From: Mycolicibacterium holsaticum DSM 44478 = JCM 12374
GTDB taxonomy: Bacteria > Actinomycetota > Actinomycetes > Mycobacteriales > Mycobacteriaceae
Assembly: GCF_019645835.1 (NCBI RefSeq)
Contig: NZ_CP080998.1
Coordinates: 2,046,001-2,110,000, forward strand
Length of the DNA stretch: 64,000 bases
Reading direction: 5' to 3'
Position numbers and translations under genes: made by a program. This document shows, in pieces, positions 2,525 through 24,105 of the stretch (position 1 is the first letter of the stretch; each line of letters opens with the position of its first letter). The notes beneath the pieces were generated by a model. That model was given only the letters and a program-made list of their open reading frames with translations. It did not search any database and was not told where the DNA came from.

Positions 2525-3824
2525 CGACCCCGTGGTCATCACCGGTATGGCGCTCGAGGCGCCCGGCGGAATCGAAACCGCCGACCAGTACTGGGCGCTG
2601 CTCGCCGAACAACGCGAAGCGCTGAGCCCGTTCCCGCGCGACCGCGGCTGGGCGATCCGTGACGTGCTGGACGGGTCACGGCGCGACGGCTTCAAGCCGA
2701 TCCAGGACCTAGGTGGATTCCTCACCGGCGCAGCCACATTCGACCCCGAGTTCTTCTCCATCTCGCCGCGCGAGGCCCTCGCCATGGACCCCCAGCAGCG
2801 GGTCGCACTGCGGGTGGCGTGGCGCGCCCTGGAGAACACCGGGATCAACCCCGACGACCTCGCCGGACACGACGTGGGCTGTTACCTCGGCGCGTCGGCG
2901 ATGGGCTACGGACCCGATCTGGCCGAATACACCAACCTGACCGGACATCTGATGGCCGGCACTGCGCTGGGCCCGGTGTCCGGGCGGATCGCCTACACGC
3001 TCGGCCTCACCGGACCCGCGCTCACGATCGACACCTCGTGCTCCTCGGCGCTGACCGCCATCCATGTGGCGAGCCAGGCGCTGCGCTGCGGCGACTGCGA
3101 TCTGGCGCTGGCCGGCGGTGTCTGCGTGATGGGATCACCGGGCTTCTTCGTCGAGTTCTCCAAGCAGCACGCGCTTTCCGACGACGGCCACTGCCGCCCG
3201 TACAGCGCGCACGCCTCGGGAACGGTGTGGGCCGAGGGCGCGGCGATTTTCGTCCTGCAACGCCGCTCGGACGCGCTGCGCGACGGACGCCGGGTGCTCG
3301 CCGAGTTGCGGGCCACCTGCCTGAACCAGGACGGCCGGTCGGCCGGGCTCACCGCACCGAGTGGAGCGGCGCAGGCCCGGCTGTTCAAGCGTGCCATCGA
3401 CCAAGGCGCCGTGCGCCCCGAAGACATCGGCATGATCGAAGGACACGGCACGGCAACCCGACTCGGCGACCGCACCGAGCTGATCTCGCTGTCGCAGACC
3501 TACGGCGCCACCGCAGCCCGCCGCGGCGGACTGCTCGGCTCAGTGAAGTCCAACATCGGCCACACGCAGGCCGCCGCCGGTGGGCTGGGACTGGCCAAGG
3601 TGCTGATCGCCGCCGAGCACGCCGCCGTCCCACCCACGCTGCACGCCGACGATGCCAGCCGCGAAATCGACTGGGACAGCCAAGGACTGCGGCTAGCCAC
3701 CAAGCTGACACCCTGGCCCGCCGTCGACGGTCAGCGGATGGCCGCGGTGAGTGCGTTCGGCATGAGCGGCACCAACGCACACGTGATCGTCTCGATGCCC
3801 GAGCGCGGAAACGAGGCGGCCTGA
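2514..3824 (+). CDS. mbtC: MbtC, polyketide beta-ketoacyl synthase
   Basis: A stand-alone ketosynthase of 436 residues, close to the length I recall for M. tuberculosis MbtC (444). The active-site motif DTSCSSA has Cys176, and the two catalytic histidine motifs are visible as 'EGHGTATRLGD' and 'SNIGHTQAAAG'. It carries out the decarboxylative condensation that builds the beta-hydroxybutyrate unit of mycobactin together with MbtD, which carries AT, KR and ACP. Start and stop overlap both neighbours (thioesterase by 11 bp, mbtD by one base), which indicates translational coupling. Confidence 0.93.
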   Translation: MTASDPVVITGMALEAPGGIETADQYWALLAEQREALSPFPRDRGWAIRDVLDGSRRDGFKPIQDLGGFLTGAATFDPEFFSISPREALAMDPQQRVALRVAWRALENTGINPDDLAGHDVGCYLGASAMGYGPDLAEYTNLTGHLMAGTALGPVSGRIAYTLGLTGPALTIDTSCSSALTAIHVASQALRCGDCDLALAGGVCVMGSPGFFVEFSKQHALSDDGHCRPYSAHASGTVWAEGAAIFVLQRRSDALRDGRRVLAELRATCLNQDGRSAGLTAPSGAAQARLFKRAIDQGAVRPEDIGMIEGHGTATRLGDRTELISLSQTYGATAARRGGLLGSVKSNIGHTQAAAGGLGLAKVLIAAEHAAVPPTLHADDASREIDWDSQGLRLATKLTPWPAVDGQRMAAVSAFGMSGTNAHVIVSMPERGNEAA

Positions 3825-6790
3825 TGCCGGGTCGCCTGCTGCCCGACGGGCGGGTGCCCGTCGTGCTCAGCGCGCACGCCGAAGAACTGATCGGGGCCGA
3901 CGCCGAGGCGATCCTGCGCTACCTGGATCACGGTTGCGCCGTCCATGCGGTCGCCAACACCTTGGTGCGCACCCGCAGGCTGCGCAGGCACCGCGCCGTG
4001 CTGCGCGCGGCCGACCTCGACGAGTTGGCCGACGGTCTGCGCGCGCTGAGCACAGGTGCGGACCATCCGCTTCTGGCCCGGTCGTCGGGGTCAGTCGTGG
4101 CCCGAACGGCGTTCGTCCTTCCCGGCCAGGGCAACCAGTGGCCGTCGATGGGCGCCGACGCCTACCGTCAGTCGGCGGTGTACCGCGCCGAGGTCGACCG
4201 GTGCGCGGCGGCGTTCGTCGCCGCGGGGGAACCCTCCCCGTTGCCGTACCTGACCGCCGACACCGACGGTGGTGGGTGGAGCCAGGTGCAGCGCCAGGCC
4301 GCGCAGTTCGCCCACGCGGCCGGACTGGCCCAGGTGTGGCGATCCTGCGGGTTCGCCCCCGACATCGTGGTGGGACACAGCCTCGGCGAAATCGCCGCCG
4401 CCTACATCGCGGGCTCGATCACCCTCGCCGACGCCGCGGCCGTGGTGATCGCCAGGGCCAGGGCCGTCGACAGCCTGGCGGGCGACTACCGCATGGCGGC
4501 GCTGGGCATCACCTGCGAGGACGCGCAGCGTCTCGCCGCGACGGTCGACGGCTGGCTCGAGGTGTCCGCCGTCAACTCCCCGTCCTCCGTGGTGGTATCG
4601 GGGCACCGCGCCGCCGTCGACGCGCTGGTGGCCGCCGCATCGCAGCGCGCGGTGTTCGTGCGCGCACTCGACGTGACCTATCCCGGCCACACCAGCGCGC
4701 TGGAACCACTGCGCGACGCCCTCACCGCATCGTTGCCGCGCGGTCAATTCGTGGCGGGCACAGCGGAATTCATCGGATCGGCCACCGCAGCGACCGTCGC
4801 TGCGGGCACCGACTTCGTCGACTACTGGTACCGCAACCTGCGCAACACCGTCCGCTTCGACCGCGCGGCGGCCGCAGCCCGCGGGCGCGGGGCATCGCGG
4901 TTCGTCGAGCTGTCGGCGCATCCGTCGCTGCTGTTCGCGTTGGGCGATCTGTTCGCTGATGAGCCCGGCGACGAACCGCAGATCGTCGGGTCGGGTCGAC
5001 GCGGTGAACCGTTCGGCGACGCCGTGTCGGCGGCCATCGTCGCCGCCGCCGTCGCCGACCCCGGCTACCGCTGGGCCGACCTGTTCGACACCGACAGCAC
5101 TGTGCTGCAAGGCTTTCCGAACGCACCGATGCGTGCTGTCGCGCTGTGGGCAGCGCCGGAACCACTTGCGCCGGTGCCTCGGCTCACCGTGGCGGAGGAA
5201 CGGTGGGTGCCGACGGCACGCCCGGTCCCCGGCGATACGGTTCGACGTATCGCGGTCGTCGACCTCTTGGGCCCCGCTGGCACCCTTGGCGATCGGCTGC
5301 GCACCGCCGTGCAGCACCATCCCGGCGCGCAACCCGCCGACGCACACGACGCCGACGTCCTCGTCGCGGTCGCTCCCGTGCTCGATTGCCCGGACGCCGA
5401 ACCGGCCGCACACGACATCGCCAAGCTCATCGACGCCGGACTGCTCGACTACGTCGAAGCCGCCGGATCAGAGTGCGCCACCGTGTGTTTGGTGACCGTC
5501 GGCGGCGAGCAAGTCCGCCCCGGCGACGCCGCGGCCCTGCCGGCCCAGGGCGCCCTGGCCGCAATGCACCGCAGCGTCGGGTTCGAACACCCCGACCTGA
5601 CGTTCGGTCGTCTGGACCTGCCGTCGTGGGACGTCGACGACGCCACCGCCGCGGCCGCTGTCGACGCGGTACTCGGCCAGGCGCAGGACGCGGCGGTGCG
5701 CGACGGAACGGCGTATACCCGCACGGTGACGGCATCGATGACGGCCGCCACCCCGTGGCCGCTCACCGACGGTGTGCTCGACAACGTGGTGATCACCGGC
5801 GGCAGTGGCACCGTGGGCATGCACTTCGCGCGGTACCTCGCCGAGCGCGGCGCCCGCCGGATCGTGTTGCTCAGCCGCAGCGGGATCGGCGAGACGACCA
5901 GGACCCAGCTTCGCTCGCCCGATGTCGAAATCGTCGACGCGCGGTGCGATATCACATCAGCGGAGCAGCTTTTGGCGGTGGCCCGCGAGCACGCAGGTGG
6001 CGGCGCGACGCTGCTCGTGCACGCCGCGGGCGCCGCCACGTTCGCCGAATGCGACCGCATCACCGGCGCCACGTTCACCGACACCGCGGCGGCCAAGATC
6101 ACCGGGCTCGCCCGGATGACGGACCACTGGCCGCTGCATCCCGAGGTACGGATCGTGCTGTGCTCGTCGCTGTCCGGGGTCTGGGGCGGGCGCGGCCATG
6201 GAGCCTACTCCGCGGCCAACCGGATGCTCGACGTGATGGCCGGCCAACTACGCGCGAAGTGCCGGGCCTGTGTGGCCGTCAGATATGGGCTGTGGCAAGG
6301 CGATCCGCAACGCGGCAGCGGCATCGCCGAGGGGGCCGGGGTGGCCAACATCGAACGCTCGGGGCTGTTGCCGATGGCACCGGAGGCAGCGGTCGCGGCC
6401 AGCCTGTGCGATCACCCGGCCGACCCGCTGCTGATGTCCGCCGACGCCGAGCGACTGCGCGTGTTCCTGGACAGCCAACCGGTGCGCGAACCAGCGCCGC
6501 ACACAGCTGAACTCGCCGCCGGCGCCGACGTCGCCGACCGTGTACTGGCCGCGCTGGCCGCCGTGCTGGCCCTCGACGCGACGGCGATCGACCCCGAAAC
6601 GCCGCTGCTGGATTTGGGCGTGGATTCCCTTCTGGCGCTGGACCTGCGCAGCCGGCTGCTGCGCAGCACCGGCACAAAGGTGACGCTGGCGACCCTGCTG
6701 GGCGGCATCACCGCCCGCGAACTCATCGACGCCCTGGACGACCCGACAGCTTCCGCACGCACTGAGAAGGTGGAAACCACGCGTGACTGA
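3824..6790 (+). CDS. mbtD: MbtD, polyketide synthase (AT-KR-ACP)
   Basis: A 988-residue PKS subunit whose ATG overlaps the TGA of mbtC (TGATG). The order of domains is: acyltransferase with GHSLGE (Ser186); ketoreductase with the NADPH loop GGSGTVG starting near residue 659 and the active-site Tyr795 in 'GAYSAAN'; and a C-terminal acyl carrier protein with LGVDSLL (Ser935). With MbtC as the missing ketosynthase it supplies the hydroxybutyryl linker between the two lysine units. The frame is open much further upstream inside mbtC, but conserved sequence and coupling support the start at 3824. Confidence 0.93.
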
Positions 6791-9700
6791 CACCGTTGAT
6801 ATCCGCGAGGACCTCGACCAGCGACGGCTGGAGGTGTTGCGGCGCAGGCTCGCCGAGCGGGGACTGCGGTCGACGAACCCGCAGAACGACGCGGTCGACG
6901 GCCTGTCTGACGGCCAGCGCCGCATGTGGTTCGTCCAGACCGCCGATCCCACCGGCGCGATCCTCAACATCTGCCTGTCCTACCGGCTCACCGGGGCGCT
7001 CGACGTGTCACGGCTGCACGACGCCCTCGACGCCGTCGCAGCGCGCCATCGCGCGCTGCGCACCACCTTTTGCGCCGACGCCGACGGCGAGCCGCAACCG
7101 ACCGTGCACGACGAGCTGACACCGGGCTGGTCCGTCCACGACCTCTCCGAACTGTCCGAGCATGCCCGCCGACTGCGCCTGGAGGTGCTGGCGCAGCGCG
7201 AGTTCAACGCGCCGTTCGACCTGAGCACCGACGCGCCGCTGCGCATCACGGTGGTCCGCACCGGCGCCGACGAACACGTCATGCTGCTGGTCGCGCACCA
7301 CATCGCGTGGGACGACGCCTGCTGGGCAGTGTTCTTCGCCGACCTCACCCGTGCATACGACGGGGAACCGCTGCCCGCACCCACCGCGGTGCCCCGACTG
7401 GACGACGAGCCGAGCGCCGAAGACCTCGACTACTGGCGCGCGGCGATGGCCGATCCGCCCGAACCCCTCGAGCTGCCCGGGCCCAACGGGTCTGCGGTCC
7501 CGACGAGTTGGCGCTCGCAGCGCACCACGCTGACGCTGCCCGGGCAGACCGCCGAGCAGGTGGCCGCGCTGGCCAAGGAATCCGGCGCAACCCCCTACAT
7601 GGTGCTGTTGGCCGCGTTCGGGGTGCTGATGCACCGCTACACCCACGCCGACGACATGCTGGTCGCCACACCGGTGCTGAACCGGCCCGCCGAACTCGAC
7701 GACGTCATCGGCTACTACGGCAACACCGTGGCGCTGCGGCTGCGCCCCCTAGCCGGACAGACCTTCCGTGACGTCCTGGCGGCCACCCGCGACACCGCCG
7801 TCGGTGCGTTCGCCCATCAACACGCCAACCTCGACCGGGTGGTGCGCGAGCTGAACCCCGACCGCCGCCACGGGGTGGAGCGGATGACCCGCGTCGCGTT
7901 CGGCGCCCGCGGCGCCGACGGGTCCGGCTTCTGCCCACCCGGCATCACGTGCGAACGTGCCGAGCTGCGTGGCCAATTCACCCAGCTTCCGCTGACATTC
8001 ATGGTCGAGTTCGACGGCCCGACGGTGGTGGTGGAGGCCGAGTATCTCGTCGAGGTGCTCGACGCGACGCTGGCCCGACAGCTGCTCGATCACTACGCCG
8101 TGCTACTCGACGACGCGCTGCGCCACCCCGACCAGCGGATCGGCGAGCTGCAGGTGATGGGCGCCGCCGATCGCGAATGGCTGCGTGCGGTCGCGGCGGG
8201 CGACGAATTCCACACCCCGGCAAAGACGTTGACCGAGCTGGTGGAGGCGCAGGTCGCCCGCACCCCCGATGCGGTAGCCCTCGTCTACGAGGGCCGTCAC
8301 TACTCCTATCGTGAGCTCAACGAGTCCGCCAACCGGGTCGCGCACTGGCTGATCGAGAAGGGCATCGGCGCCGAGGACCGCGTCGCGGTGCTGCTGGACC
8401 GCTCACCCGAACTGGTGATCACCGCGCTCGGCGTGATCAAGGCCGGCGCGATCTACCTGCCCGTCGACCCGACCTACCCCGAAGACCGGCTCACCTTCAT
8501 CCTGTCCGACTCCGACCCGAAACTCGTGCTGCGCGAACCGGTCACCGGGTTGGACCGGTACCGCTCCGACAACCCGACCGATACCGACCGGGTGCGCGCG
8601 CTGAGCCCGCAGAGCACCGCGTACCTGATCTACACGTCGGGGTCCACCGGTCTGCCCAAGGGGGTGCCGGTACCGCATCGGCCGGTCGCCGAGTACTTCG
8701 TGTGGTTCGCCGACGAGTACGACATCGACCATCGCGAGCGGCTGCTACAGGTCGCGTCGCCGAGCTTCGACGTGTCGATGGGCGAGATCTTCGGCATGCT
8801 GGCCTGCGGCGGGCGGTTGGTGATTCCGCGGCCCGACGGCCTGCGCGACATCGGATATCTCACCGACCTGTTGCGCAACGAAGGCATCACCTCGATGCAC
8901 TTCGTGCCGTCACTGCTCGGGCTGTTCCTGTCGCTGCCCGGCGTGAACCAGTGGCGCACCCTGCAGCGGGTGCCGATCGGCGGGGAGGCGCTGCCCGGTG
9001 AGCTCGCCGACAAGTTCCACGCCACGTTCGACGCGTTGCTGCACAACTTCTACGGCCCCACCGAGACCGTCATCAACGCCAGCCGATACAAGGTGGAGGG
9101 CACCCAGGGCACCCGCATCGTGCCGATCGGCACCCCCAAGATCAACACCCAGATCCACCTGCTCGACGACGCACTGCAGCCCGTGCCGGTCGGTGTCATC
9201 GGTGAGATCTACATCGGCGGAACACATGTCGCGCACGGCTATCACGACCGTCCCGGGTTGACCGCGGAACGGTTTGTCGCCGACCCGTTCACGGCGGGCG
9301 GGCGGCTCTACCGGTCCGGCGACCTTGCGCGCCGCAACGCCGACGGTGACATCGAGTTCGTCGGGCGCGCCGACGAGCAGGTCAAGATCCGCGGTTTCCG
9401 CATCGAGCTCGGGGAGGTCGCCGCGGCGATCTCGGTGGACCCCAGCGTCGGTCAGGCGGTCGTGGTGGCCAGCGACCTGCCGGGGCTGGGCCGAAGCCTC
9501 GTCGGGTATCTGACCGCGGCGCCTGACGCCGAGGTCGTCGACGTCGAGCGCATCCGCAACCGGGTGACCGCCGCGCTGCCCGAGTACATGACACCGGCGG
9601 CATACGTTGTCGTCGACGAGATCCCAATCACCGCGCACGGCAAGATCGACCGGGCGGCGCTGCCGGAACCGGACTTGAATGCGTTGGCCGGTTCCGGCGC

Positions 9701-11882
9701 CGCGTACCGCGAACCCGCCGAGGGCACCGAGCGGCACGTCGCGCAGATGTTCGCCGACCTGCTCGACCGTGACCGGGTGGGCGCCGACGACTCCTTTTTC
9801 GACCTGGGCGGGCACTCGCTGCTGGCCACCAAACTGGTTGCGGGGCTGCGGTCGCGGTTCAGCGTCGACATCGGCGTGCGGGAGGTGTTCGAGCTCGGTA
9901 CCGTCGCCGCGCTGGCCGAGCGGATCGACGCGACGTCCTCGCGCGGTACCGCGCGGCCCCCGCTGGTGGCGATCCCGCACGACGGTCCGCTGCAGTTGTC
10001 GGCCTCGCAGCTGCGGATGTGGTTCCAGTACCGCATCGACGGGCCCAACCCGGTCAACAACATCCCGTTCGCGGCCCGCATCAGCGGGCCCTGCGACGCC
10101 GACGCGTTCGTCGCGGCGGTCCGTGACGTCGTGGCCCGCCACGAGGTGCTGCGCACGACCTACCGCGAAATCGACGGGGTGCCATACCAGATCGTGAACG
10201 CCGCCGGTGACGTGGCGGTTCGCCGGGCCCACGGCGCCGACGACACCTGGCTGCACACCGAACTGGACCACGAGCGGCGCCAGATCTTCGATCTCGAACA
10301 CGACCTGCCGGTGCGCGCCGCCGTGCTGTCGACGCCCGACACACACGTGGTGTCGCTGGTGGTGCACCACATCGCATCCGACCACTGGTCGGCGATGGTG
10401 TTGTTCACCGACCTGCTGACCGCCTACCGGGCCCGCCGCGCCGGTCACCCGCCGAAGTTCGCGCCGCTGCCGGTGCAGTACGCGGACTACGCGGCGTGGC
10501 AGGCGGCCCTGCTGTCCGACACCGACGGACCCGTGGCCGGGCAGCGGGAGTACTGGCGCACCCAACTCGCGGGCCTGCCCGAGGACCCCGGCCTGGCACC
10601 GGATTTCCCGCGCCCGCCGGTGCTGAGCGGCGACGGCGACGCCGTCGAGCTGCGCATCGACGCCGCGACCCGCGCCAAGTTCACCGCGTTGAGCCAGGAG
10701 CTCGGCGTCACCGAGTTCATGCTGCTGCAATCGGCGGTGGCCGTGGCACTGCTCAAAGCCGGTGAACGACCGGACATCCCGCTGGGCACCCCCGTCGCCG
10801 GGCGCACCGAGGCCGAACTGGACCAGCTGATCGGGTTCTTCGTCAACATCGTGGTGCTGCGAAACGACCTGCGGGACAACCCGACGCTGCGCGAGGTGCT
10901 GCGCCGCTCCCGCGACACCGCGCTGGAAGCCTATGCACACCAGGACCTTCCGTTCGACCAGGTGGTGGACGCGGTGCGGCCCACGCGGTCGCTGTCACGT
11001 AATCCGCTGTTCGGTGTCGTGGTGCACGTGCGCGACGGGCTGCCCGTCGACCAACCCATCGAGTCCGGCGCACAAGGCGCGACCACGTTCACCGCGCTGG
11101 AACCCCCTTTCGACGTCGCGCACGCCGATCTGTCGGTCAACTTCTTCGCGACCGAGGACGGATACCGGGGCCACCTCATCTACCGCACCGACCTGTACCG
11201 GCGCGCGACCGCGCAGCGGCTCGTCGGCTGGCTCGGCCGGGTGCTGGCGGCGTTCGCCGACGATCCCGACCAACGGCTGCGCGACGTGCAGATCGCCGAC
11301 GACGCCGAACTGCGCCAGGTGCACCAGTTCAGCGTTGCGGCACAGGTCAGCATCCTCGACGGCTGGCGCGACCCCGTCGCGATCGGCGCCGTCGGCGACG
11401 TCTACGACCACGTCGTCGACCAGATCGGCACGCATCTTCGGGCCCGCGGCACGCGGGGGCGGTGGACCGAGCACGGCTCCGTGCAGATCCTCGACACGAC
11501 CGAGGTGCGCGCGCCGTCGGCGCCCGCCGGGCCGGCCGAACCGGCTCGCACCCAAACCGAGCGGGCGCTCGCGGCGATCCTCGCCGACGTGCTCGGCGTG
11601 CCCGACGTCAACCGCACCGACGGTTTCTTCGAACTCGGCGGTGACTCGATCCTGGCGGTGCAGGTGGCCGCCCGCGCCCGCGACACCGGGCTGGCGCTGA
11701 CCGCGCGAATGGTGTTCGAGCACCCCACCGTTTCCGAATTGGCCGCCAAGATCGACGAGGCCGCCGACACGCCACGGGTCGCCGACACCCGCCACGACCC
11801 GATGTCGGCCTCCGGGCTCTCACCCGACGAACTGGCAGCCGTGACGTCGATGTGGACGGCCTCGCGCGACGGTGCCCCTTGA
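6783..11882 (+). CDS. mbtE: MbtE, lysine-incorporating peptide synthetase
   Basis: A 1699-residue NRPS with a GTG start overlapping mbtD by 8 bp. The domains are: condensation (HHIAWDD, His172-173); adenylation with the core '[11 protein letters not shown]' near residue 617; carrier protein (GGHSLL, Ser1012); a second condensation-type domain (HHIASDH near 1195); and a second carrier (GGDSIL, Ser1622). There is no second adenylation domain. The family role is incorporation of the first (later N6-hydroxylated) lysine of mycobactin. The extra C-PCP pair presumably condenses with or holds the intermediate passed to or from the MbtC/D polyketide step; that part is inference. Confidence 0.92.
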
Positions 11883-14800
11883 CCGCGACGGACGCCAAGG
11901 CGGCCATCGAGGATGTGATGGCGCTCAGCCCGCTGCAACAGGGGCTGTTCTCGCTGGCCAAGCTCAGCGACGACGACCGCGGCGACCCGTACGTGATCGC
12001 CATGGCCGCCGACATCAGCGGCGCGCTGGACACCGCGCTGTTACGCGAATGCGCGGCAGCGATGCTGGCCCGCCACCCCAACCTGAGGGCCAGTTTCCTG
12101 CAGGCCAACCCCGGTCGGCCCGTGCAGGTGGTGCCCACCCATGTCGACGTGCCATGGCGACAGATCACCGCCACCGCCGACGAACTGGACGCGCTCGACA
12201 TCGCCGAACGGCGCCGTCCGTTCGACCTGGAACGCGGACCGGCGATCCGATTCGTGCTCATCGAAATGCCGACAGAAGAGGATGGCGATCGCTTCCGTCT
12301 CACCGTCCTCGCCCACCACATCATCATCGACGGCTGGTCGCTGCCGCTGTTCGTCGGCGAGCTGATCACGCTGTACCGGTACGGCGGTGACCCGGCCGCA
12401 CTGCCGCCACCGCCGCGGCCGTACCGCGACTACATCGGCTGGCTCGCCGACCGCGACCGCGACGCCAGCCGGGCGCTGTGGCGTCAACACCTCGACGGGC
12501 TCGACGGCCCGACGCTGCTGACACCCACGCTGGCGGCGGCCGAGCCGCCGACCGGAGCACCGCGGCGCACCGAGCTGAAGCTCGACCAACAGGCCACCGC
12601 GGAGCTGGCGGAGGCCGCGCGCACCCGCGGTATCACGGTGAACACCCTGATGCAGATGGCGTGGGCCACACTGCTGTCCGCGTTCACCGACCGCAGCGAC
12701 GTGGTGTTCGGCGTGACGGTGTCGGGCAGGCCGGATGAGCTCACCGGCGTGGAGACGATGGTCGGGCTGTTCATCAACACCGTGCCGCTGCGCGTGCGGC
12801 TCGACCCCGTGGCCTCGGTCGGCGCGCAATGCGTTGCGCTGCAGCGCGAGGCCGCCCTGTTGCGCGATCACAGTTATGAGCCGCACGCCGAACTGCGCGC
12901 GCTGGGCGGTATCGGTGAGATGTTCGACAGCCTGCTGGTGTACGAGAACTTCCCGCCGGGCGGGCTGGTCGGCGGCGGCGATTTCACCGCCAACGGCGCG
13001 TCGTTTCGCCCGGCGGCGCTGGAGAGCCTGTCCCATTTCCCGGTGACCATCGCCGCGCACATGGTCGACGACCAACTCACCGTGCTGGTCGAGGTGATCG
13101 ACGACGCGCTGGGGCCGATGAGCGCCGAATCGCTGGGCCGGCGTCTGCTGAGCACCGTGCAGCGCCTGATCACCCACTGGGACCGCCCGCTGCGCGACGT
13201 CGGTGTGCTGCTCGACGGTGAAGCCACCCCGCCAGCCGAATCCATCGACACACCAGCACATCTCGGCATACATGACGCGTTCGCCGAGATCGTCGACAGT
13301 CGGCCGGCAGCGCGGGCGCTGAGCTGGAACAGCGGCGAATTCACCTACCGGGAACTGGACCAGGCCGCCGACCGGTTGGCGGCCGCGCTGGCCCGGCGCG
13401 GGGTCGGTGCCGAACACCCGGTGGCCGTCAACCTCAGCCGCGGCCGACAGTACGTGACCGCGATGCTCGCGGTGCTCAAGGCCGGGGGAGTGATCGTCCC
13501 GCTGGACCCGTCGATGCCCGCCGAGCGCGTCACCGACATCCTGGCGCAGTCCGGTGCCGCGGTCGTCGTCGACGACGCACTGATCGCCGCTGCAGCCGAC
13601 GAACTCACCGGTGACTTCCGGCCCGCTGCCGTGCATCCCGGGCAGGCCGCCTATGCGGTGTTCACCTCGGGCACCACCGGCAGGCCGAAGGGCGTCGTCG
13701 GAACTCATCAGGCCGTCCTGGCCTACGCCGCCGATCACGCGCGGAACATGTTGCGCCCGGCGGCGGCTCGGCTGGGCCGGCCGCTGCGGGTCGCCCACGC
13801 CTGGTCGTTCACGTTCGACGCCGCCTGGCAACCGCTGGCCGCACTGCTGGAGGGGCACGCCGTGCACATCGTCGACGACGACGTGCAACGTGACGCCGAG
13901 GCGTTGGTGGACACGATCGGGCGATACGGCATCGACATGATCGACACCACCCCGTCGATGTTCGCCCAACTGCACGCCGCGGGCCTGCTCACCACCGTGC
14001 CCCTCGCGGTGCTGGCGCTGGGCGGCGAGGCCGTCGGACTTCCGGCGTGGACCCTGATCCGCGACGAATGCGCCCGCACCGGGATGGCGGCCTACAACTG
14101 TTACGGCCCAACCGAAACCACCGTGGAGGCCGTCGTTGCCGGTATCGCCGACCACGAAAAGCCCACGATCGGGCGGCCCACCTCACCCACCCGCGCCTAT
14201 GTGCTGGACTCCTGGCTGCGCCCGGTGCCCGACGGCGTGCCCGGCGAGCTGTACCTGGCCGGCGGGCAGTTGACCCGCGGCTATCTGGGCCGGGCGGGGG
14301 AGACCGCAAGCCGGTTCGTCGCCGACCCGTTCGCCGCGGGCCGGCGGATGTACCGCACCGGCGATGTCGTGCGCCGCCAGCCCGACGGTGCGCTGCAGTT
14401 CCTCGGGCGCTCCGATACCCAGGTGAAGATCCGTGGCTTCCGCGTCGAACCCGACGAGATCGCCGCGGTCCTGCACGCACATCCGGCCGTGCGCCACGCC
14501 CACGTCGCGGTGCGCAGGCACCGCTGGGGGCCACGGTTGACCGCGTACGTGGCCGCGGATCCCGAGCCCGCGGTGGCCGAGCTGCGAGCCCTGCTGGCAA
14601 AACGGTTGCCGCGCTACATGGTTCCGCACGGCATCGTCGTCGTCGACCAGCTCCCGCTCACCGCGCACGGCAAGGTCGACGACGCCGCGCTGGCCGCAAT
14701 CACCGCTGCGGAGGGTCCGTCGGCCGCTGCCGAGACCCAGACCGAGGCCGCGCTGGTGCAGGTGCTGGCAGAACTGCTCGACGGCGCCGAGATCGACGTC

Positions 14801-16231
14801 ACCGCCGACTTCCTGGCGCTCGGGTTGGACAGCATCGTGGCGCTCTCGGTGGTGCAGGCCGCGCGGCGGCGCGGAATCCCGTTGCGGGCCCGGCTGATGC
14901 TCGAATGTGCAAGCGTGCGCGAACTCGCGGCGGCCATCGACAACGAGTGGGTCGGCGTCGAACGCGACGATCGTGACGAGGCCGGGCCGGTTCCCGTGCT
15001 ACCCAACGCCTATTGGCTCTACGAACACGGCGACCCGCGCCGGCTGGCCCAGACCGAGGCGATCTGGCTACCCGACGGCATCACCGGCGATCAGCTGCAC
15101 CAGATGCTGCGCGCCGTCGTCGACGGGCACGAGGTGTTGCGGTGCCGGCTCGACGCCGAGACGATGACGCTGGTGGCTCAGGAACCCGGCGACATCCTGT
15201 CAGAGGTGACCGTCGAGAGCGACCTGGCCGACGCCGTCGCCCGACATACCGATGCCTCGGTGCAACGCCTTGACCCGCAACGCGGTTCGATGCTGTCCGC
15301 GGTGTGGCTGCGCCCACCCGACGGGCCCGGCGTGCTGGTGCTCACCGCGCACGCGCTCGCGCTGGACCCGGCGTCATGGCGGATCGTGCTGGGTGAGCTC
15401 GACGCGGCATGGCACACGATCCGTTCCGGCGCAGCACCGGCCCCGATCCGGGAACACACCAGCCTGCGCCGGTGGTCGCGCCGGCTCCGCGAGCGCGCGC
15501 AGGACCTGCAGACGTGTGACTTCTGGGCCGCGCAACTCGACGGCGAGGATCCCGCCATCGGCGCGCGCCGGGTGCAGCCCGAAACCGACAGGGCCGGTGA
15601 CGTCGTCGTCACCGTGTCGGTCGCCGACGCCGATGTCAGCGCCCGGCTGGTGACATCGAGTGTCCCGACGCCGCACCTGCTGGCCGTCGCGGCCGCGCGC
15701 ACCCTCACCCGCTGGCGACAACACCGCGGGCAGGACCCGCGCCCGCCGCTGCTGGCGCTGGAGACCCATGGGCGCGCCGACGGCATCGTCGCGGACGCGG
15801 ACACATCCGACACCGTCGGGCTGCTCACCGCGATCTACCCGCTGCGGGTGCAGTCCAGCCAGGACCTGGCCGCGATCCCCGGCGACGGCATCGACTACGG
15901 TCTGCTGCGCTATCTGCGCCCCGACACCGCCAGCCGGCTGCGCGGATACCGCGAACCCCAGCTGCTGCTGAACTTCCTGGGCCGCATCCACGTCGGGCTC
16001 GACGGTGGCGTGCTGCGACCGGATCGCACGCTGCTGGCAGGGGTATCGCCGTTGCCGGAGCCCGAACTCGCGGTGCGACACGAGCTGACCATCGTGGCGG
16101 CGGTGCTCGGTGCGAGCGACGCGCCGGTGTTGGCCGCGCAGTGGCGGACGTTGCCCGACATCCTGTCGGCCGACGATGTCGTCATCCTTCAGTCCCTGTG
16201 GCAGGAATCGTTACGAGAGGTGGTGTCATGA
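11879..16231 (+). CDS. mbtF: MbtF, terminal lysine peptide synthetase with epimerase-like C-terminus
   Basis: I chose the TTG at 11879, which overlaps the mbtE stop (TTGA). An in-frame ATG at 11852 would add nine unconserved residues. Domains in order are: condensation (HHIIIDG near residue 146); adenylation ('[10 protein letters not shown]' near 596); carrier protein (LGLDSIV, Ser985); and a C-terminal domain of epimerisation type. In this last domain the HHxxxD motif is degenerate: 'TAHALALD', with Ala1157 replacing the first histidine. The 'NFLGR' motif is kept. MbtF loads the second lysine, which becomes the cyclic cobactin lactam. The degenerate domain argues against epimerisation and may serve release or cyclisation (inference). 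Confidence 0.9.
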
Positions 16232-21966: not shown

Positions 21967-24105
21967 TTGACGCCCCGCGAGACGACCGCTGACTCGTCGC
22001 AGGCTGAACAGTCTTCTGAGTCGGTACAAAGCAGCATCTCCAGAATCGATGTGCCACCCGCCTATGTCGTGGGCCTCCTGGGTTCCGCCGACGAGAATCT
22101 GCGCGCGCTCGAGCGGGTGCTGGCGGCCGACATCCATGTGCGCGGCAACGCGCTGACCCTCTCCGGTGAACCCGCTGACGTCGCGCTGGCCGAGCGCGTG
22201 GTCTCCGAATTGCTGGCGATCGTGGCCAGCGGGCAGTCGCTGACCCCCGACGTCGTGCGGCACAGCGTGAGCATGCTCACCGGCGCCGGCAACGAGTCGC
22301 CCGCCGAGGTGCTGACCCTTGACATCCTGTCGCGGCGCGGCAAGACGATCCGCCCCAAGACGCTGAACCAGAAGCGCTACGTCGACGCCATCGACGCGCA
22401 CACCGTCGTCTTCGGCATCGGCCCGGCAGGCACCGGCAAGACGTATCTGGCAATGGCCAAGGCGGTCAATGCGTTACAGACCAAACAGGTCACCAGGATC
22501 ATCCTGACCCGGCCTGCCGTGGAGGCCGGGGAGCGGCTGGGCTTCCTGCCGGGCACCCTCAGCGAGAAGATCGACCCCTACCTGCGACCGCTCTACGACG
22601 CGCTGCACGACATGATGGATCCCGAATTGATCCCAAAACTGATGAGCGCCGGGGTGATCGAGGTGGCACCGCTGGCGTACATGCGGGGCCGCGCGCAGCC
22701 CTTGTTTACCGAAGTACTGACGCCGGAGGGCTTCCAGCCAATCGGTGACCTGAATGTCGGCGACTTCGTCATCGGATCCGATGGCCGACCGACTGAGGTC
22801 TTGGGTGTGTATCCGCAAGGATTCAAGGAGATCTACCGCGTCTACACCCAGGACGGCTCGTCGACCCTCGCATCCGGTGACCACCTGTGGTCCGTATACA
22901 CGCGCAGCGACCGTTATCGCGGGAAACCGGCCCGAGTGCTGCAGACCAAGGAGATGATTGGCAACCTCCGCGCAGCTCATTACCACCGCTATGAACTGCC
23001 ATTGTTGAGCGCCCCCGCGGAGTTCGAACGGCGTTCGGTACCTCTCGACCCGTACGCCCTTGGCTTGCTTCTCGGTGACGGCTGCTTTTCGTGTCGAGCC
23101 ACCCCTGCATTCGCCACGAGTGATCCTGAATTGGCCGACGCTCTGCAGCGCCGCATCCCAGGCATTGACGTTCGTCGGAAAACCGACGTCGATTACGTAC
23201 TGAACCGCGTAAGGCGTCCTGGGGAAGTCATCACGATTGAGAACCCGGTGACAGGCGCTTTGCGCCGCCTCGGTCTGATGGGTCTGAAGTCCGACCGCAA
23301 GTTCGTTCCGCGGGAGTACCTGTTCAACTCGTTCGATGCCAGGCTCGGCGTCCTGCAAGGCCTGTTCGATAGTGATGGAGATCCTGTCACCCAGCAGGGC
23401 CGTACTTGCCGAATACAATTCACCACCGTTTCTGACCGCCTCAGAGATGACGTCAAGTTTCTCGTTCGATCGATCGGCGGTGTCGTCTACTCGCGAACCA
23501 GGAAGGCCGAGGGACGGAAGCCCGGAAAGGCGCGGGGCCAGGACGTACATCACCGGGCTGACGCGCACACTCTCGATATTCGCCTTCCCGAGGGCATCGC
23601 TCCATTTCGACTCGCACGCAAGGCGGCCAAGTATGACGTAACAGGGGGCGGTCAGCCGAAGCGCTATATCGATCGCATCGAGCCGGCAGGAACTGAGGAG
23701 GCTGTCTGTATTCGAGTGGCGGCTGCGGATTCCCTTTATGTGACTGAAGACTTTCTGCTCACGCACAACACTCTCAACGACGCGTTCATCATTCTCGACG
23801 AGGCGCAGAACACCACCGCCGAACAGATGAAGATGTTCTTGACGCGGCTGGGCTTCGGTTCGAAAGTCGTTGTCACCGGCGACATCACGCAGGTGGATCT
23901 GCCCGGCGGCGCAAGCTCCGGACTGCGCGCGGCGATGCAGATCCTCGACGGCATCGACGACATCCACTTCGCCGAACTCACCAGCGCCGACGTGGTGCGG
24001 CACCGGCTGGTCTCCGAAATCGTCGATGCGTACGCGAAATTCGAGGAGCCGGGGTTGGTGAACCGGGCCCAGCGGCGGGCCTCGGGGAACAGGTCACGAC
24101 GGTAG
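21967..24105 (+). CDS. phoH: PhoH-like ATPase interrupted by an intein
   Basis: A 712-residue precursor with a TTG start. The host protein has the Walker A loop GPAGTGKT (Lys158) before the intein and the Walker B region 'FIILDEAQN' straight after it. Removing residues 243-601 leaves 353 residues, the usual size of mycobacterial PhoH1. The intein sits in the conserved 'MRGR/TLNDAF' sequence between the two nucleotide-binding motifs, so the ATPase is inactive until splicing occurs. PhoH proteins are linked to RNA metabolism and, by gene order with ybeY, to ribosome or RNA maturation. Confidence 0.95.
22693..23769 (+). mobile_element. Class 3-type intein with LAGLIDADG endonuclease inside PhoH
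   Basis: A 359-residue in-frame insertion (precursor residues 243-601). It begins with Ala instead of Cys/Ser ('[13 protein letters not shown]') and ends in Thr-His-Asn, with Thr as the first C-extein residue. Block B has Thr300, His306 and Trp308 ('SGDHLW'). Block F has Cys581 ('EEAVCIRV'), and Thr599 precedes the terminal His-Asn. This Trp-Cys-Thr triplet without an N-terminal nucleophile is the published signature of class 3 inteins, which start splicing from the block F cysteine. A homing endonuclease with two LAGLIDADG-type motifs (residues 365-372 'LGLLLGDG' and around 462-471 '[10 protein letters not shown]') lies in the middle. Codon and base use are visibly less GC-rich than the flanking exteins. 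Confidence 0.92.

Follow-up and report, generated by a model that had tools for sequence, protein, structure and literature searches.

A full-length class 3-type intein with a LAGLIDADG endonuclease in the PhoH ATPase of Mycolicibacterium holsaticum

Analysis of a 64,000-nucleotide stretch of the Mycolicibacterium holsaticum DSM 44478 genome (hereafter, the window) revealed a 359-residue intein within phoH, the gene for a PhoH/YbeZ-type ATPase. We put the probability at about nine in ten that this element is an intact class 3 LAGLIDADG intein that splices from an internal cysteine (Cys339) and homes to the empty site in phoH. The intein lies between the Walker A and Walker B motifs of PhoH, just before the Walker B strand, and its insertion point falls between Arg and Thr where MRGR meets TLNDAF. 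The junctions are marked by the codons cgc (Arg-1), gcg at 22693 (Ala1), aac at 23767-23769 (Asn359), and act (Thr+1). Relatives that lack the intein are uninterrupted across the site, which at the DNA level reads GGCCGC before the insertion point and ACTCTCAACGACGCG after it; the first three residues that follow are TLN, or else TIS, TLS, or SLN. Because these empty relatives fix the boundary, residue 1 of the intein is Ala rather than a displaced Cys or Ser. The sequence-only reading of this DNA had named a different start bearing Cys or Ser as one finding that would overturn it; the comparison with empty alleles upheld Ala1, and the span it gave (22693..23769) proved exact to the base.

Class 3 inteins are defined in PMC5222942 by Trp at position 12 of block B, Cys at position 4 of block F, and Thr at position 5 of block G (the WCT triplet), together with Ser or Thr at position +1. 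The window intein carries this triplet as W66, C339, and T357, which had been correctly identified as W308, C581, and T599 in the numbering of the TTG-started open reading frame (ORF). A class 1 intein begins with Cys, Ser, or Thr as its first nucleophile, whereas the window intein begins with Ala. Like most class 3 inteins, which do not need an N-terminal nucleophile, it has none; it is followed by Thr+1 and contains H64 (B:10), H358 (G:6), and N359 (G:7). Eleven residues (A1, Q2, P3, S61, D63, H64, W66, C339, T357, H358, and N359) are invariant across the 50 distinct inteins that were parsed, a set that leaves out the single sequence shared by L024 and L053 (motif variant TLNS) and locus L073, which is cut by the end of its contig. 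Inspected by eye, the L024/L053 sequence has Ala1, the Cys, THN, and Thr+1 like the others. The HINT fold is present, and the predicted model can be overlaid on class 3 inteins of solved structure. Ratios of nonsynonymous to synonymous divergence (dN/dS) for HINT against the window intein are about 0.04-0.05, and both exteins around the window intein are intact. In its sequence the intein falls within the published definition of class 3, and Cys339 is the residue at which splicing is predicted to begin. Conservation in 50 of 50 inteins, Pfam matches, and empty alleles together bear out the earlier claim that PhoH is interrupted, between Walker A and Walker B, by a nucleophile-less WCT intein that carries a LAGLIDADG endonuclease.

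HLW, the block F Cys, and THN are also retained in all of 20 more PhoH-site inteins, which come from further genera and families within the class; 19 of them begin with Ala. The other, L175 (genome G411), combines Ser1 and Ser+1 with the WCT residues and so mixes class 1 and class 3 signatures. Its Ser1 with WCT resembles mixed inteins that Tori and Perler reportedly placed in class 3.

In the mechanism we propose, Cys339, aided by His64 and Thr357 and placed by Trp66, would attack the bond between Arg-1 and Ala1. The N-extein would then pass to Thr+1, and cyclization of Asn359, with help from His358, would free the intein and join MRGR to TLNDAF. At the DNA level, cleavage of an intein-free phoH site by the endonuclease would lead repair to copy the intein into it. 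The sequence-only reading held that the intein switches off the ATPase until it is spliced; a precursor with an inactive ATPase is plausible, since the intein adjoins Walker B. Prediction of the full precursor gave a mean predicted local distance difference test score (pLDDT) of 59.7, which is low confidence, and was not used for the ATPase question.

The endonuclease domain appears intact. LAGLIDADG_3 (PF14528) matches ORF residues 459-519 over the cut-off at 1.3e-10, the frame is open, and both LAGLIDADG motifs are kept together with the catalytic acids D129 and D226. Endonuclease-domain dN/dS is 0.03-0.21 in 17 of the 18 usable pairs (19 were compared) and 0.75 in the remaining pair, L021/L023. 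Endonuclease activity is probable as judged from sequence, and cutting of the empty host allele is predicted; the signs of mobility are indirect. At 23368-23382 the second motif of the window intein reads DSDGD; most relatives and P0001, a 99% identical protein, have DSDGG.

The intein is patchily distributed. Judged by match strength, 30 of the 294 genomes compared within the genus carry it (25 as full-length alignments and 5 as two segments flanking an internal deletion); a further count of the genus gave 31 of 297. A scan of named genomes yielded 45 named or partly named loci, mostly from Mycobacterium or Mycolicibacterium (34 titles) and also from Nocardia, Gordonia, and Nocardiopsis. The insertion site in PhoH is identical in all 72 parsed loci. 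A class-wide scan of 394 genomes returned 34 matches at 1e-20 or better, and the PhoH site was confirmed in at least 24 of these genomes (the window's, three of its genus, and 20 others), which span ten family codes including that of the window. G364 is a further candidate that looks similar, and other class-wide matches sit in different proteins. Shortened inteins of 274-347 residues (15 of the 50 distinct sequences) occur alongside full-length ones, and the amino-acid identity of the window intein to the others compared is 64-84%.

In composition the intein departs from the rest of the window, and its history is unlike that of phoH or ybeY. Its GC content is 0.600, compared with 0.685 for the window, and equally low values occur in only 8 of 1216 overlapping 1077-base segments elsewhere in the stretch. 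Its deficits in GC (-0.061) and in GC at third codon positions (GC3; -0.216) are the largest among the 50 distinct inteins. Synonymous divergence (dS) of the window intein is far above that of PhoH and ybeY: of 10 pairs, 8 give values of 1.85-2.91 and 2 are saturated, compared with 0.55-0.91 for ybeY. The nearest genome by ybeY, L141 (0.20), is intein-free. Most relatives of the window's PhoH lack the intein, and with all 20 empty loci in the tree, the nearest rows by tree path are five empties; these 20 loci are the nearest matches to the window, not random picks. Mapped on that tree, intein presence and absence change seven times, at least five of the changes being forced by starred branches (seven and four in the first extein tree, from which eight of the empties were absent).

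In closely related pairs elsewhere in the family, intein dS often greatly exceeds that of the host. N-extein dS is below 0.5 in 83 pairs, of which 82 were usable; in these the ratio has a median of 2.99 for the intein, compared with 1.47 for ybeY, and 77 of the 82 pairs have the higher value in the intein, with the caveat that the pairs are not independent. The clearest case is that of two M. peregrinum genomes (L005/L007), with values of 0.12, 0.11, and, for ybeY, 0.10, compared with 0.74 for the intein. A check for co-conversion beside the C-terminal junction of this pair found 6, 0, and 1 third-position differences moving outward, which are few. Three pairs (L008/L012, L018/L021, and L054/L055) look vertical. 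The relatives suggest that class 3 PhoH inteins move between species. At the empty site, TIS replaces TLN in 8 of the 20 empty rows (L138-L140, L143, L144, L147, L151, and L152) and in none of 69 intein-bearing rows, rows that are not independent; TIS alleles could possibly reflect homing resistance, a scar of loss, or merely one clade.

The most serious alternative is that the intein was present in the ancestor of the mycobacterial group and was lost by many descendants, its low GC being the composition of the intein family. Several observations point in this direction and weigh against horizontal gain. Full-length inteins are GC-poor as a group: the mean GC difference is -0.032 for the 35 inteins of at least 350 residues and -0.001 for the 15 shortened ones, and the deficit rises with length (Spearman -0.62, across rows related by descent). 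The window has broadly similar neighbors in the intein and extein trees, both placing it near L020, L011, L045, L010, and L052, and no near-identical or close donor was found in the sets searched. Codon constraint may also inflate intein dS. Nevertheless, the window's deficits exceed those of every other intein compared, its intein dS is well above that of ybeY, under vertical inheritance intein dS can match extein dS, as in L008/L012 and L018/L021, and the starred branches force repeated gains or losses. We consider purely vertical descent possible but doubtful and horizontal gain of the window intein likely, judging from these sequence comparisons. The sequence-only reading had taken the lower GC to point to recent homing; horizontal gain is supported by the GC and GC3 deficit, the empty nearest exteins, and dS, whereas recency is unproven because no close donor was found and the trees are broadly concordant. 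The exact place of the window in the extein tree is unstable, since adding all 20 empties displaced it from its position as sister of the empty L141 (support 91) and put it in a weak group of L020, L011, L045, and two empties (support 88).

Two further alternatives concern splicing. It is highly improbable that the element is a splicing-dead remnant in which WCT persists, excision fails, and PhoH is inactive: a class 3 pseudogene intein that is inactive has been reported in another setting (PMC3196547), but the catalytic residues are all kept in 50 of 50 inteins, HINT dN/dS is low, the exteins are intact, and the genome holds no other close PhoH of the YbeZ type (the other match is 32% identical). 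A class 2-like intein, in which Thr+1 attacks the N-terminal junction directly and Cys339 is merely structural, is scarcely credible, for Ala1 by itself fits classes 2 and 3, but the WCT triplet, invariant in 50 of 50 inteins, is the published mark of class 3.

Table 1. Positions of the intein, its parts, and the flanking PhoH motifs in the window.
Feature	Position	Strand	Basis or conservation
phoH ORF carrying the intein (PhoH/YbeZ-type ATPase)	21967..24105	+	712 aa, TTG start
Walker A GPAGTGKT, N-extein	22420..22443	+	Direct reading
Intein, 359 aa, Ala1 to Asn359	22693..23769	+	ORF reading; boundaries from empty alleles
N-terminal HINT part, blocks A and B, residues 1-105	22693..23007, approximate	+	Alignment, model
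His64, B:10	22882..22884	+	50/50 inteins
Trp66, B:12, W of WCT	22888..22890	+	50/50 inteins
LAGLIDADG homing endonuclease domain, residues 115-315	23035..23637, approximate	+	
Asp129, LAGLIDADG motif 1 (LGLLLGDG)	23077..23079	+	D in 33/35 full-length inteins
Asp226, LAGLIDADG motif 2 (LQGLFDSDG)	23368..23370	+	D in 50/50 inteins
C-terminal HINT part, blocks F and G, residues 318-359	23644..23769, approximate	+	Alignment, model
Cys339, F:4, predicted initiating nucleophile, C of WCT	23707..23709	+	50/50 inteins
Thr357 (G:5, T of WCT), His358, Asn359	23761..23769	+	Each 50/50 inteins
Thr+1, first C-extein residue	23770..23772	+	Thr in 69/69 intein-bearing rows
Walker B strand FIILDE, C-extein	23785..23802	+	Direct reading

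The host protein is a PhoH domain with both Walker motifs present in its exteins. Pfam assigns PhoH (PF02562) to the ORF in two stretches (4.5e-90), and PhoH of an intein-free relative aligns end to end, across the insertion point, with PDB 3b85 (6.9e-107), which we take to be a PhoH chain of the Corynebacterium glutamicum type. Upstream of phoH lie mbtD, two nonribosomal peptide synthetase (NRPS) genes, hrcA, dnaJ, and rsmE; downstream are ybeY and a gene of the CNNM/CorC family. This neighborhood is the usual one in mycobacteria. Large polyketide synthase/NRPS genes, including that for MbtD of the mycobactin siderophore cluster, occupy 2819-16231 upstream of hrcA-dnaJ-rsmE-phoH-ybeY. The same genome also contains a RecA intein (L004, G000:C1 near 3253651-3254145) with a Cys start, a VVHN end, and Cys+1, a class 1 signature.

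A phage origin of the window intein was considered and rejected. None of its phage or viral relatives exceeds 44% identity, and bacterial PhoH inteins form their own clade relative to 21 phage rows, for which reason no phage donor is shown. Genes annotated as PhoH in Eggerthella phage LE2-3 and Caudovirales GX15bay (L109:1719-3338 and L110:1017-3839) were also rejected as phage PhoH inteins, since their translated exteins lack the PhoH Walker A motif GPAGTGKT; the label probably spread through similarity to the inteins of intein-bearing PhoH proteins. In PhoH-like proteins of two viral contigs (L128 and L129), a WCT-type intein directly follows GFLPG, a different site that lies upstream of the one used in bacteria; PhoH seems to have been invaded more than once.

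The window intein adds a full-length, apparently intact class 3 example with an endonuclease; the mycobacterial class 3 structures solved so far are of mini-inteins. In the PhoH family the homing cycle of gain, endonuclease decay, GC amelioration, and loss can be read at one site in one genus, and testable predictions about conditional PhoH splicing follow. A broader and rather unlikely idea is that an actinomycete-wide lineage of class 3 PhoH inteins is still homing and that its splicing conditionally gates PhoH. Because phoH is placed between rsmE and ybeY, such gating would affect RNA or ribosome maturation. If so, the lineage would gate without the internal Cys48-type disulfide of the mycobacterial DnaB intein 1 (DnaBi1), and TIS alleles may mark either resistance to homing or past loss of the intein.

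Class 3 inteins in mycobacterial PhoH have been published before, a point that the sequence-only reading did not mention, and the window intein is a newly found, well-preserved example. Kelley et al. 2018 (PMC6195587) align the PhoH inteins of M. fortuitum and M. xenopi as class 3, PMC7360933 lists one from M. smegmatis, and Kelley et al. 2016 (PMC5050341) treat phage and mycobacterial class 3 inteins. In the literature searched (mostly without subscription papers), no listing pointed to a study testing whether a PhoH intein splices or homes. The M. fortuitum and M. xenopi inteins share their host protein and class 3 features with the window intein. Unlike the window intein, M. smegmatis DnaB intein 1 (PDB 6bs8) and M. 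chimaera DnaB1 (6rix and 6riy) occupy the DnaB P-loop, lack an endonuclease, and precede Ser+1. The window intein, whose cysteines are 131, 134, 239, and 339, has nothing equivalent to Cys48, the redox partner in DnaBi1; in 36 of 50 PhoH inteins, 339 is the sole HINT cysteine. PI-SceI, the VMA intein, differs in its class 1 mechanism and its host. The closest phage relative found, the terminase intein of Mycobacterium phage Phrappuccino, is 42.2% identical over the full length and begins Ala-Gln-Pro-Leu, but differs from the window intein in its terminase host and its Cys+1.
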